A stretch of DNA of 50,136 bases from Candidatus Eremiobacteraceae bacterium (GTDB lineage: Bacteria; Vulcanimicrobiota; Vulcanimicrobiia; Eremiobacterales; Eremiobacteraceae): the NCBI GenBank assembly GCA_036511855.1, contig DATCBN010000074.1, positions 1 to 50,136 on the forward strand, written 5' to 3'. The notes beneath the pieces were generated by a model. It had not been told where the DNA came from and ran no database searches. It saw only the letters and a program-made list of their open reading frames with translations. Positions 37,936-45,941 of the stretch are shown one piece after another. Both the position numbers and the translations under genes were made by a program. Position 1 is the first letter of the stretch. Each line of letters starts with the position of its first letter.

Positions 37936-38646
37936 CTAGGCGATCAAGCGCGCGCAGAAAAAGGCGACTGCAGCCGCTATCCCGCCTATTAGCGTTGTTT
38001 GGAGCGCTGAGCGCGCCCAGGAAACACCGGTGAAATTACCTTTCACCGCACCGAAGATAAATAACGCCACCATGGTCACTCCGATTGAATACGGAAGCGC
38101 ATGGCCGGCATCGGCAAATGCGACGTATGGCGCGAGCGGAAGAACGCCGCCCACGACATAGGAGCCGCCGATGCGCAGTGCACTCATCGGAGCTTCCATG
38201 GCGTTGGGCTTCTCAAGACCTAGCTCGAATCGCATCATGAACTCGATCCATCGCTCTTTGTCCGAGGTGATAGCGGTCGTTACCACCCTCAGTGCGTCAC
38301 CCTGCACGCCATACGAGCGTATGATCGCTTCTATCTCTGCTCGTTCCTCATCCGGAACATCGTCTATTTCTTTGGCTTCGCGCCTGCGTTCGCTCGCATA
38401 ATGTTCGACGTCGGAGCGCGCCGCAAGATATCCACCGAGCCCCATCGCGATGCCGCCCGCCGCAAGCTCTGCGACGCCGGCCGTGAGGACGATGTGCGAC
38501 GCCGCGATCGCTCCGCTTATACCGGCCGCGAGAGCGAACGGTACGGTGAGCCCGTCGGACATGCCGATGACGATATCGCGCACCGTACTCGAAGCAGTGA
38601 AATGCTCCTCGATATGCGCTCGTCTGGGAATAGGCTGTCTCTTCAT
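37936..38646 (-). CDS. VIT1/CCC1-family Fe/Mn transporter
   Basis: 236 residues. Members export or store Fe(II)/Mn(II) across membranes. TVRDIVIGMSDGLTVPFALA is the signature first helix with the conserved Asp, followed by GGIAMGLGGYLAARSDVEHY. A cytoplasmic helical metal-binding loop rich in Glu (EIDDVPDEERAEIEAIIRSY) precedes the last helices. Four to five transmembrane helices are visible; length is typical. The start has no strong ribosome binding site. Upstream is a repeat hairpin at 38668; downstream it runs into the TolC fragment. Confidence 0.88.
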   Translation of the reverse strand: MKRQPIPRRAHIEEHFTASSTVRDIVIGMSDGLTVPFALAAGISGAIAASHIVLTAGVAELAAGGIAMGLGGYLAARSDVEHYASERRREAKEIDDVPDEERAEIEAIIRSYGVQGDALRVVTTAITSDKERWIEFMMRFELGLEKPNAMEAPMSALRIGGSYVVGGVLPLAPYVAFADAGHALPYSIGVTMVALFIFGAVKGNFTGVSWARSALQTTLIGGIAAAVAFFCARLIA

Positions 38647-40758: not shown

Positions 40759-41415
40759 GTGAACCACCTTCGGACCGCCATGGCTGTCCTGTCGCTGGTC
40801 GTCGCAGGTTTCTGCTCCGCCGGTCTTAGTCACGTTTTGGTCTGGTCGCTCAGCGCCTTGGGCGCGATCGACGGGCCTTATCTCGCATACCGGCACGATG
40901 CGATGTTCGCCGCTGTCCTGACCGCCGCCGTCGCCGGCGGGATCATCGGAGTCGTCGCACTCGCCTGCGCTTTCACATCCGGCGTGCGCGGCAGCGAGGC
41001 GTGGCTCGCCGCTCTGCACCGCACGATCACCGCTATTGGTCCTCGGCGAGCTTTCGCCGTGGTCGCCAGCGTGCAGCTCGGCGCGATCATCGCTCTCGAA
41101 GCCGCCGAGCAAATCCTCCAATTCGGGCACTCGCTTGGGCCGGCGGCAGCACTAGGCGCGCCGCTCTTCGTTGGAATTCCGATCCACGCACTTTGCGCGC
41201 TGGCCATCGTTTGGCTGCTCTTCGCCGTCGCGCACGCGGTCGTTCGGGCAGAGTCGCGGATCCGCGGCCTGCTCTTGCCGACAGTCCGGCGACGCTCGCG
41301 CCCATCGCCCGCGGCCACGACGCTGCAACATTATCGCGCTTCAGGCTCGGCCGTCCGCCCTGCCCCGCTCGCACTTCGCTTCGCCAACCGGCCTCCACCG
41401 TCGATCGCAGCGTAA
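40759..41415 (+). CDS. Membrane protein of unknown function
   Basis: 218 residues from GTG 40759, starting MNHLRTAMAVLSLVVAGFCS. Four hydrophobic segments are visible (near 8-35, 48-72, 98-118 and 130-162), then a basic, Pro/Ser-rich tail of about 55 residues that is probably cytoplasmic. No family recognised. It precedes the cytochrome-multicopper oxidase pair on the same strand with a 104-bp gap, so it may or may not belong to their transcript. Confidence 0.65.
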   Translation: MNHLRTAMAVLSLVVAGFCSAGLSHVLVWSLSALGAIDGPYLAYRHDAMFAAVLTAAVAGGIIGVVALACAFTSGVRGSEAWLAALHRTITAIGPRRAFAVVASVQLGAIIALEAAEQILQFGHSLGPAAALGAPLFVGIPIHALCALAIVWLLFAVAHAVVRAESRIRGLLLPTVRRRSRPSPAATTLQHYRASGSAVRPAPLALRFANRPPPSIAA

Positions 41416-41519: not shown

Positions 41520-43436
41520 ATGGTTAGGTTTTTGGAGGATCGGGGCGTCCGCATCGTTGGCGTCCTGTTCACATTGATGACGAGCATTTCGGCGTGTGTA
41601 TGGGCGGTGGGATTCATGAAGCCGGAGCCTGCGCAGGCCATTCCGATGTTCGCGATCCGGACGGGTGCGTCGTGCGATCTATGTCATTCCACTTTTCCCG
41701 GCATGACGAACTACGGCATGATGGTCATGATGTCGAACTTCTCGATGCTGCCGCACGATGCGGCGCACAGCCCCGGCTTCACATCGCTGGTCTTCGCCGA
41801 AGAGTTCGATTCGCTGCCCGATGACGGCGTGCCGAAGCTCCACACCGATAATCTCGGCTTCTTATCGGGCGGCTTTGTAGGAAAAGATTTCACGTACTAC
41901 GTCGAGCAGCACGTCGTCGACGGGGGCTTCATCGGCGGCACCGATCAGATGTGGATGGCGTACAATAATCTTTTCGGGGGCACCGGTTCGCTGCAGTTCG
42001 GCAAGTTCCACACGCCGTTCCCCTTCATGCCCGCGCACCGCATCACGCTATCCCCGTACGAAACCACGAGCAACACGGTGGGCGAGAACGACTTCAACGA
42101 GGACGACAGCCACTGGGGCGTCACGATGTCGAACATGCAAGGCACGCTCATGTACGGCCTCAGCGTCTTGGGCGGCAACGATCTCATCGGCAAGGGCGCA
42201 TTCCAACTCACCGGCGATCACGATCACAGCGTCGACTTCAACTTGATGACCATGAGCGATGCGCCGCTGAATTACGGTCTTGGCCTGGTTCGCGGATTTT
42301 CTCCGCTGGCCGAAGGCGGCTTCGACCCGTTCAGCCGCGAGGCGTTATATCTGCAGTACCGGCCAAGCGGATTCCAAGGGCTGCAGTTCCAGGCTGTGGG
42401 TCAACTCGGTTACGATGAAAATCCCACGGGGATCGGTGTCGCCACACGCACGCGCGGCGGATTCCTCGAAGCGCAATATGAGTTGCCGCACAAGAACTTC
42501 ATGGTGCTTCGCTGGGATACGCAAAATGGAGACGCGCCCGAAGCCGGCGCCACGCTCGACCTCATCCATCAGATCGAACCGAACACGAAGTTCACCATCG
42601 AGGGGCGCAAGTCGACCGCCGGCACCACGATGGGCATGGCGCTCGAATGGGCCGGGCCGTGGAGCAAGTCGCGTATCATCGCCACTCCGCACTTGGGCAC
42701 GATGGCCGGCATGAACATGAGCGGCATGAGTGGGATGAGCGGCATGAGCATGGGCGGCGGAATGTCGCCGCTGGCTCATACGCTTGCGAACGGCGATGCG
42801 ACCCGCGGCGCACTCTCGTTCACTGCGCATTCGTGCATGCAGTGTCACGGCGCCGGCGGTGCGGGCGGCGGCATCGGTCCGCGGCTCATCGGCGTGGCGA
42901 CGTCGCTCCAGCCCGAGCAGATCTACGACTACGTCAAGCATCCGCGTGCGCCGATGCCTGACTTCAAACTCGGCGACGATGAGATCGCGGACCTTGTCGC
43001 GTATGTGGATTCGCTGACGCCGGGGCACGCGGTCGCCGCCGATATCGCCAAAGAACACCCGGCCGGCGGAATGGCAGGGATGTCGATGGGAATGGCGCCG
43101 CCGATGCGCCAACCCGATCAAACGCCGGTGAACGCAGGAACGCACGGCTACTTCCCAGGTGTGGAGGCCGGCGATCCGGTGAGCGGCGCGGCGCTCTTCG
43201 GCGCGAACTGCGCAAGCTGCCACGGCGCGGGAGGCGTGGGCGCCGACAGTCCGCGGCTCCAGGGTCTCGCGAAGACGGACAGTCCGAGTTATTTCGCATG
43301 GCAGATCAAGGCTCCGGCGCCGCCGATGCCGCGGATCAAACTCAGCGACAAACAAATCGCGGACTTAGCTGCATACCTCGAAGTGCTCGATACACAAAGC
43401 GCGCCCGTTGGAGCGGCGCTGCAGCCACACCCGTGA
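41520..43436 (+). CDS. Fusion of a membrane-anchored haem segment, a porin-like domain and two cytochrome c domains
   Basis: 638 residues. An N-terminal hydrophobic segment is followed by a CxxCH haem site (C52, C55, H56: SCDLCHSTFPG). Residues about 60-390 read like a beta-barrel or porin-type protein: aromatic-rich alternating strands with MWMAYNNLFGGTGSLQFGKF, EGGFDPFSREALYLQYRPSG and RTRGGFLEAQYELPHKNFMV. A Met-rich linker follows (about 400-422), then two class-I-like cytochrome c domains, with C439-M-Q-C442-H443 and C564-A-S-C567-H568; candidate axial Met are in PRAPMPDFKL and APAPPMPRIKL. A second Met-rich stretch separates them. The multicopper oxidase starts twelve nt downstream. A haem- and copper-linked electron conduit or metal oxidase partner is inferred. 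Confidence 0.8.
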   Translation: MVRFLEDRGVRIVGVLFTLMTSISACVWAVGFMKPEPAQAIPMFAIRTGASCDLCHSTFPGMTNYGMMVMMSNFSMLPHDAAHSPGFTSLVFAEEFDSLPDDGVPKLHTDNLGFLSGGFVGKDFTYYVEQHVVDGGFIGGTDQMWMAYNNLFGGTGSLQFGKFHTPFPFMPAHRITLSPYETTSNTVGENDFNEDDSHWGVTMSNMQGTLMYGLSVLGGNDLIGKGAFQLTGDHDHSVDFNLMTMSDAPLNYGLGLVRGFSPLAEGGFDPFSREALYLQYRPSGFQGLQFQAVGQLGYDENPTGIGVATRTRGGFLEAQYELPHKNFMVLRWDTQNGDAPEAGATLDLIHQIEPNTKFTIEGRKSTAGTTMGMALEWAGPWSKSRIIATPHLGTMAGMNMSGMSGMSGMSMGGGMSPLAHTLANGDATRGALSFTAHSCMQCHGAGGAGGGIGPRLIGVATSLQPEQIYDYVKHPRAPMPDFKLGDDEIADLVAYVDSLTPGHAVAADIAKEHPAGGMAGMSMGMAPPMRQPDQTPVNAGTHGYFPGVEAGDPVSGAALFGANCASCHGAGGVGADSPRLQGLAKTDSPSYFAWQIKAPAPPMPRIKLSDKQIADLAAYLEVLDTQSAPVGAALQPHP

Positions 43437-43448
43437 TGTGAGGAACGC

Positions 43449-44576
43449 ATGATCAATCGACGTGATGTCTTGAAGATGGGTGCGGCGGGCGCGTTCGGCG
43501 CTGCCATGGCAAAGGCGGGCATCGCGATGGCGGGCGTCACCGCGCCGCAGCAATATGCAGTAGCTTCCGGCGGCGGAGACTTAGACCGGCTGACCACCGC
43601 CGCGTTGCGCGCGTTGCCGGCACTGCGGCCTCCGCACGCCATCTCGCGAACCGGCCGCACGAAGACGTTCACGCTCACCTTGGCCACCGCCAACGCCGAA
43701 CCGCTTCCCGGCCACTCCGTGCCGGTGCGTGCGGTCAACGGATTGTCGCCCGGACCAACGCTGCGCGCCACCGAAGGCGACGACGTTTCCGTAACCGTGA
43801 TCAACCGCTTGACGATGGCGGCCACCATCCATTGGCATGGCGTGCCGGTTCCTTTTCTGATGGATGGCGCGGGCATGATCTCGCAACAAGCCATCGAGCC
43901 CGGCCAATCTTTCGTCTACCGCTTCACCGCGCCGCAAGCGGGAACGTATATGTACCACAGCCACTACAACGACTTGGAACTTCAAGCGGTGGCAGGCATG
44001 CTCGTGGTCGATCCGCAGACGTCCGGTCGCGAACCACGTTATGCTTCGGATGTGCCGATCTTCATCAGCTCCATGGAATGGGAGCAGACGAGAAACGTGG
44101 AGGCGCAAGCGGTGCTCGCGAACAGCATGCTGATGCCTTCGATGGCTTCGAACGCAGCGGCCGATCCGAAGCCCGACATGGGCGATGCGATGGATCGCAT
44201 GGACATGGTGGAGTATTGGTGCTTCAACGGCAAGACTTTTCCCGCCACGAAACCCATCGAGGTCAAAACCGGCGATCTCGTGCGCGTGCGCTTCGCAAAC
44301 TTGACGAACATGGCGCATCCCATCCATCTCCATGGCCACTGGTTCCGCTTCATCGCGCAAGACGGCAGTCCACTTGAACGGCCGGCCATCATGAACACCA
44401 TTCCGGTTCAGCCCGGGCAGACCATCGACATCGACTTTCTAGCCAATAATCCAGGCGTGTGGCCGCTTCACTGTCATATCATCTCACACATGGTCGACAA
44501 TCACGACGTGATGAGCGGGCTGATGACCGTCGTGCAATACGAGGGCTTCGGGCTCCCCGCGATGATGCAGGGGTAG
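43449..44576 (+). CDS. Tat-exported multicopper oxidase
   Basis: 375 residues. MINRRDVLKMGAAGAFGAAM is a twin-arginine signal. All four copper motifs are present: HWHG (128-131), HSH (170-172), HPIHLHGH (290-297) and HCHIISH (341-347). The lost middle and short length suggest a two-domain or reduced three-domain enzyme. The tail of the last motif reads HMVDNHDVMSGLM, with His where many enzymes have the T1 axial Met, resembling the NN-type members rather than CueO. A Met-rich patch (MLMPSMASN, MDRMDM) may bind Cu(I). GAGGAA precedes the ATG. Directly downstream of the cytochrome fusion, it probably oxidises Cu(I), Mn(II) or organics and passes electrons to the haems (inference). Confidence 0.9.
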   Translation: MINRRDVLKMGAAGAFGAAMAKAGIAMAGVTAPQQYAVASGGGDLDRLTTAALRALPALRPPHAISRTGRTKTFTLTLATANAEPLPGHSVPVRAVNGLSPGPTLRATEGDDVSVTVINRLTMAATIHWHGVPVPFLMDGAGMISQQAIEPGQSFVYRFTAPQAGTYMYHSHYNDLELQAVAGMLVVDPQTSGREPRYASDVPIFISSMEWEQTRNVEAQAVLANSMLMPSMASNAAADPKPDMGDAMDRMDMVEYWCFNGKTFPATKPIEVKTGDLVRVRFANLTNMAHPIHLHGHWFRFIAQDGSPLERPAIMNTIPVQPGQTIDIDFLANNPGVWPLHCHIISHMVDNHDVMSGLMTVVQYEGFGLPAMMQG

Positions 44577-44586
44577 CAGGGCAAGT

Positions 44587-44773
44587 GTACTAGGGCAAGC
44601 ATCGCTTGCCCATTTCTGTATTTGTAGGAGGGCAGGTGTACTAGGGCAAGCATCGCTTGCCCGTTTCTGTATTTGTAGGAGGGCAGGTGTACTAGGGCAA
44701 GCATCGCTTGCCCCGTTTCTTGTAGGAGGGCAAGCATCGCTTGCCCATGGGTGAGCGCTGCTCACCCTAGTAC
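44587..44773. repeat. Palindromic repeat array, 51-bp tandem period
   Basis: Copies at 44587-44611, 44638-44662 and 44689-44713 repeat every 51 bp, including the spacer with TTTCTGTATTTGTAGGAGGG. A fourth copy (44722-44746, GTAGGA flank) is followed by hairpin GGGTGAGC-GCT-GCTCACCC and TAGTAC. The array fills the gap between the multicopper oxidase and the convergent permease. Confidence 0.9.
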
Positions 44774-44813: not shown

Positions 44814-45941
44814 TCACAATTTAGCGTCGGGCGCCGGCTCGTTTCGATCGCGGCCGCCCCACCAAAGCAAGACGGCCACGATAACTAGAAACGATATGTT
44901 GAGAACGGCGGTGAAGTCGAGGCCGATGTGCTCGACTGCCATCAAAAGGTTGCCCGGCGGACGCGTGATCACATGTAGTAGCGAGAACGCCCATTCAACC
45001 ACGATGCCGGCGATCACCATCGACGCATAGAATACGGCGACCATTCGCAGCGCGAGCGGCCAGCCATAGTATTTTCGATAGATGTCGACGAGCGGCAACA
45101 CGATGAGATCGGCATAGAGGAAGGCGATGACGCCGCCGAACGTGCTGCCGCCACTCCACAGCACAGCCGCAAGCGGCACGTTGCCGATCGAGCAAACAAA
45201 GCTCAAGAATGCGATGACCGGTCCGATGAGCGCATTTTCGATGATCCGGACCGGGGCGGAGCCGGTGGTGATGAACAGATGCTGCCACCACGTCACGGGA
45301 ACGGCGACCGCCAGAAAGCCGGCGATCAAGAACCCGAGGATGAGGTCTGTCCGCAGCATGGACCAGTCCATCGCGAAATAGTGCGCGACGTAGCGCCATC
45401 CCTCGCCCGATCGGAGTTTTTGCCAAAGGCTGTTGCCCGGTGCGAGCATTTCGCCGTGATCGTGCTGATGCGTCGACTCGGTTTCTACGTGCGTGCGGCC
45501 TGTTTCGGCCATGTCGGCCGGAATGAAAAATTTCGCTAGAATTGCAAAGATCGCGATCAGCACGATCCCGCCGATCCATTCAGCTATGACAAACGGCCAG
45601 CCCAGCAGCCGCCATAGAATGAAGCCGAGTTCGATGACCAGATTCGTAGAGGCGAACATGAAGACCATCGAGGTGGTGAAATTGGCGCCTCGTTTGAACA
45701 GCGATTTTGCAGTGGCGGCGGCGGCGTAGCTGCACGATGAACTTGCCGCGCCCATGACCGTCGCCAGCCCGAGTTCACGAAGGCCCGCGCGACCAAGGTG
45801 CTTGGCCATGCCTCCTTTGGGCACGTACGCCTGCACCATCGCCGACATCATAAAGCCGAAGAGCAAAGACCAAAGCACGGCCCAGAACATCGCAAACGAT
45901 GCGTAGAGCCATTGGCCGATGAAGTGAACGATAGGCATCAA
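44814..45941 (-). CDS. YraQ/UPF0718-family permease
   Basis: 375 residues with 8-10 transmembrane helices. Two conserved half-repeats carry the family motifs, GAASSSCSYAAAATAKSLFK in the first half and CSIGNVPLAAVLWSGGSTFG in the second, each with a Cys or Ser in a re-entrant region. A His/Asp-rich cytoplasmic loop (STHQHDHGEM) lies between them. Relatives include arsenic permease ArsP and uncharacterised export proteins near redox or metal genes. It is convergent with the multicopper oxidase, separated by a repeat array. Substrate unknown. Confidence 0.87.
   Translation of the reverse strand: MMPIVHFIGQWLYASFAMFWAVLWSLLFGFMMSAMVQAYVPKGGMAKHLGRAGLRELGLATVMGAASSSCSYAAAATAKSLFKRGANFTTSMVFMFASTNLVIELGFILWRLLGWPFVIAEWIGGIVLIAIFAILAKFFIPADMAETGRTHVETESTHQHDHGEMLAPGNSLWQKLRSGEGWRYVAHYFAMDWSMLRTDLILGFLIAGFLAVAVPVTWWQHLFITTGSAPVRIIENALIGPVIAFLSFVCSIGNVPLAAVLWSGGSTFGGVIAFLYADLIVLPLVDIYRKYYGWPLALRMVAVFYASMVIAGIVVEWAFSLLHVITRPPGNLLMAVEHIGLDFTAVLNISFLVIVAVLLWWGGRDRNEPAPDAKL

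Follow-up and report, generated by a model that had tools for sequence, protein, structure and literature searches.

A porin-cytochrome fusion encoded beside a multicopper oxidase in Vulcanimicrobiota, a possible outer-membrane metal-oxidising relay

The window analysed here, a stretch of 50,136 nucleotides from a Candidatus Eremiobacteraceae bacterium (contig DATCBN010000074.1), holds a gene for a porin-like protein with haem motifs, whose stop codon is followed after 12 nt and on the same + strand by the ATG of a multicopper oxidase (MCO) (Table 1). The arrangement raises the question of whether the two proteins work together in moving electrons across the outer membrane, and if so, from which donor and to what end.

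Table 1. Features of the locus and their positions in the window
Feature	Position	Strand	Basis
VIT-family gene, 225 bits, about 3 kb upstream of the pair	37936-38646	-	Pfam
Small membrane protein, 218 aa, four hydrophobic stretches, tail RFANRPPP	40759..41415	+	related L024 gene, 33% identity
Porin-cytochrome fusion, 638 aa, three CxxCH	41520..43436	+	ORF list, Pfam, AlphaFold, shuffling
Signal peptide, residues 1-40, end PAQA	41520..41639	+	read from sequence; helix 2-31 in AlphaFold model
N-terminal haem region, residues 41-85, AIPMFAIRTGASCDLCHSTFPGMTNYGMMVMM	41640..41774; CxxCH 41673-41687	+	hhalign against Cyc2-type proteins
16-stranded porin-type barrel (predicted), residues 86-378	41775..42653	+	AlphaFold strands; OprP match
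Met-rich linker 1, residues 386-422, 8 Met of 37	42675..42785	+	composition
Class-I cytochrome c domain 1, residues 423-500	42786..43019; CxxCH 42834-42848	+	Pfam PF13442 / PF00034
Met-rich linker 2, residues 501-548	43020..43163	+	sequence
Class-I cytochrome c domain 2, residues 549-625	43164..43394; CxxCH 43209-43223	+	second PF13442 stretch
Two-domain MCO, 375 aa, twin-arginine leader	43449..44576	+	Pfam, motifs
ArsP_1-type permease, convergent	44814..45941	-	Pfam; context

The sequence-only reading had described the first gene product as a single chain with an N-terminal CxxCH, a strand-rich porin-like middle, Met-rich linkers and two C-terminal cytochrome c domains, and each of these parts was recovered. 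The CxxCH motifs lie at residues 52, 439 and 564. Their occurrence by chance was ruled out by shuffling the residues of the protein, as none of the 20,000 shuffles contained two or more motifs and 54 contained exactly one. The first motif, the YGMM stretch and the methionines M70/M71 of the N-terminal haem region were unchanged across 19 relatives. The C-terminal domains are of the class-I cytochrome c type, as two stretches matched Cytochrome_CBB3 (PF13442; 93 bits against a cut-off of 27) and both carry CxxCH; the second domain was also matched by cytochrome c6 from residue 551 and by PF00034 at 43185-43382.

The middle of the chain matched no family in the Pfam scan of the fusion. An AlphaFold model, for which the alignment comprised 26 sequences (the window and 25 of the 27 loci described below, without L081, which is cut at its 5' end, and the fragment L090), gave 16 strands between residues 86 and 378 with pLDDT block means of 54 to 85; the region around the first haem, the linker and a large share of the C-terminal part fell below 50. 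The top structural match was OprP (2o4v; Z 24.0, rmsd 2.5, 278 aligned), with OprO alongside it (4rjw; Z 24.0, rmsd 3.0, 289 aligned) and general porins following at Z 21-23. This likeness in fold is no evidence of function. A soluble, non-barrel middle was ruled out by the 16 predicted strands together with the OprP and OprO matches.

The Tat-exported oxidase that the same reading had placed directly downstream was also borne out. Cu-oxidase_3 at residues 80-191 (134.3 bits) and Cu-oxidase_2 at residues 249-349 (123.7 bits) were both well over their cut-offs, and the twin-arginine leader scored slightly short with the Pfam TAT model (19.8 against 22.7). The motifs HWHG (128), HSHYN (170), HPIHLHGH (290) and HCHIISHM (341) provide ligands for type 1, 2 and 3 copper, and with the cupredoxin domains they identify the protein as a multicopper oxidase. 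Their ligand residues were invariant across 18 MCOs, namely the window and 17 of 25 MCO loci, the other eight having been omitted mostly for overlong or overlapping starts. A loop insertion precedes the MSGL motif and makes the choice of the type 1 copper axial ligand ambiguous. The solved structures nearest in sequence were the two-domain laccase 2zwn and then 3g5w, the two-domain MCO of Nitrosomonas. The model of the MCO (mean pLDDT 57) resembled the three-domain laccase 6vow (Z 20.5, rmsd 4.1, 259 aligned), a likeness uninformative on domain number or oligomer as the model rests on an alignment of three-domain relatives.

As a working partnership should be kept in other genomes, we looked at the neighbours of the related genes. 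A contig scan with the window protein as single query found no relative; an alignment-based scan found 27 loci, on contigs named as Vulcanimicrobiota or Eremiobacterota, the remainder being MAGs. Among 149 genomes of the phylum, 97 gave a match at 1e-20, mostly to paralogues, and 32 held a long relative (score above 600 bits). Immediately downstream and in the same orientation, 30 of these 32 had the MCO gene; the contig ends in G098, and the fusion of G034 had no MCO in the DNA read. In the contig-scan collection, whose contigs largely overlap the 32-genome set, the MCO was present at 25 of the 27 loci and the other two were cut by contig ends. None of the 24 paralogous haem-porin loci taken as control had an adjacent MCO, the only trace being a weak match at L047 about 7 kb off and on the opposite strand. 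A local accident of gene order was ruled out by this difference between 30/32 and 0/24. Of the two outcomes that would have refuted the sequence-only reading, a soluble middle and a lack of conserved linkage in other genomes, neither was observed.

The same parts were found in several forms. The window, L024 and L025 encode a three-haem fusion with a two-domain MCO. Class relatives encode a two-haem fusion ending in a YtkA-like domain (a tentative name, with a Pfam match in 4/19 and a best E of 0.00068) together with a three-domain MCO of about 475 aa. In G022, G039 and G075, barrel, cytochrome and MCO are encoded by separate genes that lie side by side. Lastly, the cytochrome is free-standing at 12 loci, with an adjoining MCO at ten; upstream DNA was present at eight of these ten and held no barrel gene. 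Of the 12, the two loci without an adjoining MCO were L134, which lacked one, and L140, which was cut. As the same parts occur both fused and unfused, cooperation of barrel, cytochrome and MCO is suggested, and this Rosetta-stone pattern suggests transfer from cytochrome to MCO as the core.

In a tree of the haem-barrel part (40 rows, ten of them paralogues), the MCO-linked fusions formed a clade apart from the ten paralogues with a support of 99/97, and the three-haem form was a single clade (100/100). Inside the MCO-linked clade, the three-haem form separates deeply from the rest, which implies that the linkage is old. The split-gene forms were nested among the fused ones and so appear to be fissions; for this tree, the tool warned that long branches meet. 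Besides, the phylum has a second porin-cytochrome architecture, seen at L042, L051, L052, L053, L062 and L063, where haem-porins of 490-550 aa have two CxxCH and no MCO next to them. An ORF of 1100 aa at L056 (5777-9079) has CxxCH at residue 764 followed by a barrel-like part, with 700 other residues before. L133 is a cytochrome-MCO pair without a barrel; some 1.9 kb before its cytochrome gene lies an upstream ORF of 636 aa whose N-terminal part is hydrophobic and which has CxxCH at residue 411.

The sequence-only reading had regarded a one-chain conduit as unusual, known conduits usually being built from separate porin and cytochrome proteins. Its architecture stands, with a predicted barrel and a conserved oxidase partner; the oddity does not, because Cyc2 is a published one-chain monohaem cytochrome-porin and Fe(II) oxidase, for which Keffer and co-workers name OprO and OprP as template structures (Keffer 2021, PMC8406198). 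By hhalign, the fusion family matched six Cyc2-type plasmid proteins in the N-terminal region only (prob 96.6, E 5e-10), and with this resemblance one-chain porin-cytochromes are not new. The six were taken as Cyc2 by motif and mutual likeness rather than by annotation, and were aligned from nine plasmid records, with H6, H9 and H11 (two-CDS split) left out. The plasmid search with the window protein had given two weak matches, of which the Methylocystis one (E 3e-4) led to the Cyc2-type proteins; the same search with the haem-porin paralogue of its own genome gave no match. A separate c-type cytochrome gene lay directly downstream in six of seven Cyc2-type plasmid loci and nearby in the seventh, and these genes thus match the fused cytochrome domains of the window protein.

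Like Cyc2, the fusion has an N-terminal haem motif right after the signal peptide and then a predicted 16-stranded porin of the OprP/OprO type. Unlike Cyc2, it has three CxxCH rather than one, two of them in extra C-terminal cytochrome c domains, as well as Met-rich linkers and a conserved MCO partner. The defining motif AXPXFAR[Q/K][T/Y] before the first CxxCH is broken (the window reads AIPMFAIRT); the strict form was found in none of the 19 relatives and the relaxed form A.P.[FL]A in all 19. The strict motif occurred in just two of the six plasmid proteins (one CDS begins past it and three deviate), which cautions against giving it much weight. Further, PXL after CxxCH is replaced by PGM in the window, with P.M in 17/19 relatives and P.L in 2/19. 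Judged by motifs and the predicted fold, the fusion is Cyc2-type in build and lies outside Cyc2 by the published definition. The second haem-porin of its own genome (424 aa, L043 9142-10416), with AVPIFAERYGFSCAQCH, is closer to the Cyc2 motif and stands without an MCO.

We propose, at slightly less than even confidence, that the pair is an outer-membrane metal-oxidising relay ending on oxygen in the periplasm, with an electron route that we infer as follows. A porin whose strand number is even has both termini in the periplasm, which would place the first haem at the pore or inside it and leave the two C-terminal haems on the periplasmic side. Fe(II) or Cu(I), as a small reduced metal ion, would donate a single electron to the pore haem; from there it would hop through the tethered cytochrome domains to type 1 copper of the MCO in the periplasm. 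The MCO would reduce O2 to water, and the oxidised metal would stay outside or be re-exported. The usual potentials of type 1 copper in MCOs lie above 208 mV. As 208 mV is the potential given for Cyc2 of Mariprofundus (PMC8406198), flow from such a haem to an MCO would be downhill. For an MCO and cytochromes in one cluster, ncgABC offers a precedent (PMC3603346). Since the route bypasses the inner membrane, it would serve to detoxify metal, to scavenge oxygen or to alter metal speciation more than to gain energy. More tentatively still, the pair could be a self-contained metal-to-oxygen shunt of the outer membrane that works without the inner membrane, in which one polypeptide would bring electrons of extracellular metal across the outer membrane to a dedicated periplasmic MCO and on to O2, forming a seemingly stable module of exchangeable parts in the phylum.

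Several points speak against a relay. An MCO can oxidise its substrate alone, the cytochromes being possibly dispensable; the eight cytochrome-MCO loci without a barrel indicate that the core can do without its extracellular end; and the fusion of G034 has no MCO nearby. In the AlphaFold model, moreover, the first haem region and the C-terminal domains are too low in pLDDT to give haem distances. Neither the donor, whether Cu(I), Mn(II), Fe(II) or another, nor the direction of electron flow is readable from sequence.

The main rival, which we consider rather unlikely, is copper detoxification of the PcoAB/CopAB type, where the MCO alone would oxidise toxic periplasmic Cu(I) with O2, and the outer-membrane protein would hold the MCO, bind Cu(I) through its Met-rich linkers or export copper, its haems being accessory or redox-sensing. 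A Tat-type MCO and an outer-membrane barrel protein stand side by side in both systems, and PcoAB is treated as a porin-MCO pair in PMC5566968. The best NCBIfam match of our MCO was indeed copper_res_A (TIGR01480); however, at 183.8 bits this two-domain enzyme falls far below the curated cut-off of 478.95 and hence outside PcoA/CopA, and the barrel, porin-type and unlike that of PcoAB/CopAB, carries haem motifs and gave no CopB/PcoB match at E 0.1 in one Pfam scan. The Met-rich linker and the Met-rich MCO (6.4% Met) hint at copper, but the linker was seen in only four of the 19 aligned relatives, the window counted in, and is thus not a core feature. A cytochrome c gene, moreover, accompanies the MCO at loci that lack the barrel, which counts against this rival. 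Among the neighbours, the ArsP_1-type permease family, near the pair in the window and seven relatives, and SCO1/SenC, further on in L028, speak for copper. TonB-receptor and SCO1/SenC genes were near the pair at some loci, and the window has a gene of the VIT family, which presumably comprises iron/manganese transporters. With these neighbours, the context fits iron as well as copper.

A respiratory role is a distinctly less probable alternative. The fusion would here conduct electrons of extracellular Fe(II), most of which would pass through its cytochrome domains to inner-membrane oxidases, and the MCO would be an assembly factor or only a side branch. For the iron oxidase Cyc2, such a role is proposed in Fe(II) oxidisers (PMC8406198), and a Cyc2-like gene is described from an Eremiobacterota MAG of acid mine drainage (PMC8357290). 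The genome of the window has three COX1-family genes, and L024 encodes a caa3-type subunit II about 2 kb beyond the pair. The conserved neighbour, however, is the MCO and not an inner-membrane oxidase, and the genome (96.4% complete) gave no RuBisCO match, thus no sign of autotrophy by that route. Least probable by far is a periplasmic cytochrome c oxidase fed by the inner-membrane chain through the cytochrome domains, with the barrel merely an outer-membrane anchor, for although cytochrome c-MCO pairs without a barrel exist, it would leave the N-terminal haem of the barrel (CxxCH in 19/19) without a role.

Apart from these, two known systems share single aspects with a relay to oxygen. In ncgABC of Nitrosomonas, the MCO NcgA is encoded with the c-type cytochromes NcgB and NcgC. 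It reportedly has no barrel and its cytochromes are separate proteins, unlike the window fusion. MtrAB, MtoAB and PioAB carry electrons across the outer membrane, as proposed for the fusion, with a large porin and a separate decahaem cytochrome (PMC10654088). They are defined without an MCO partner, and the fusion, as one chain with 16 predicted strands and three single-haem sites, lies outside their definition.

Each of the three combinations, the one-chain cytochrome-porin, the porin-MCO pair and the cytochrome-MCO cluster, is already known. A literature search on Cyc2, porin, cytochrome and MCO combinations, with most subscription papers and all bioRxiv preprints outside its scope, found no report of the three joined, and within the same scope no paper was found for Eremiobacter with multicopper oxidase or for Cyc2 with a C-terminal cytochrome. 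Iron oxidation is tracked by Cyc2-type marker proteins, whose electron partners are for the most part guesswork. In the present case the genome itself names the partner, a fused or adjacent cytochrome and an MCO kept together across a hardly cultured phylum. If a relay to oxygen is true, markers of metal oxidation in metagenomes may signal oxygen-linked detoxification and not lithotrophy. The split forms are a ready means of expressing and testing each part singly.

The cluster probably begins with the small membrane-protein gene upstream of the fusion. Its family was detected by HMM just upstream of the pair in 21 of the 32 loci and is marked by conserved GH, H and Q...E..E positions and an RF.RPPP tail. 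The HMM missed the proteins of the window and L024, which are a distant form (hhalign prob 92, E 6.6e-7), and no Pfam family passed its cut-off for the proteins of the window, L067, L032 and L024. A promoter scan found one sigma-70-like site against 1.1 expected and was thus uninformative. Between the MCO and the convergent permease, at 44573-44758, lies a 51-nt repeat in four copies that contain the palindrome GGGCAAGCATCGCTTGCCC; three copies resemble terminators.
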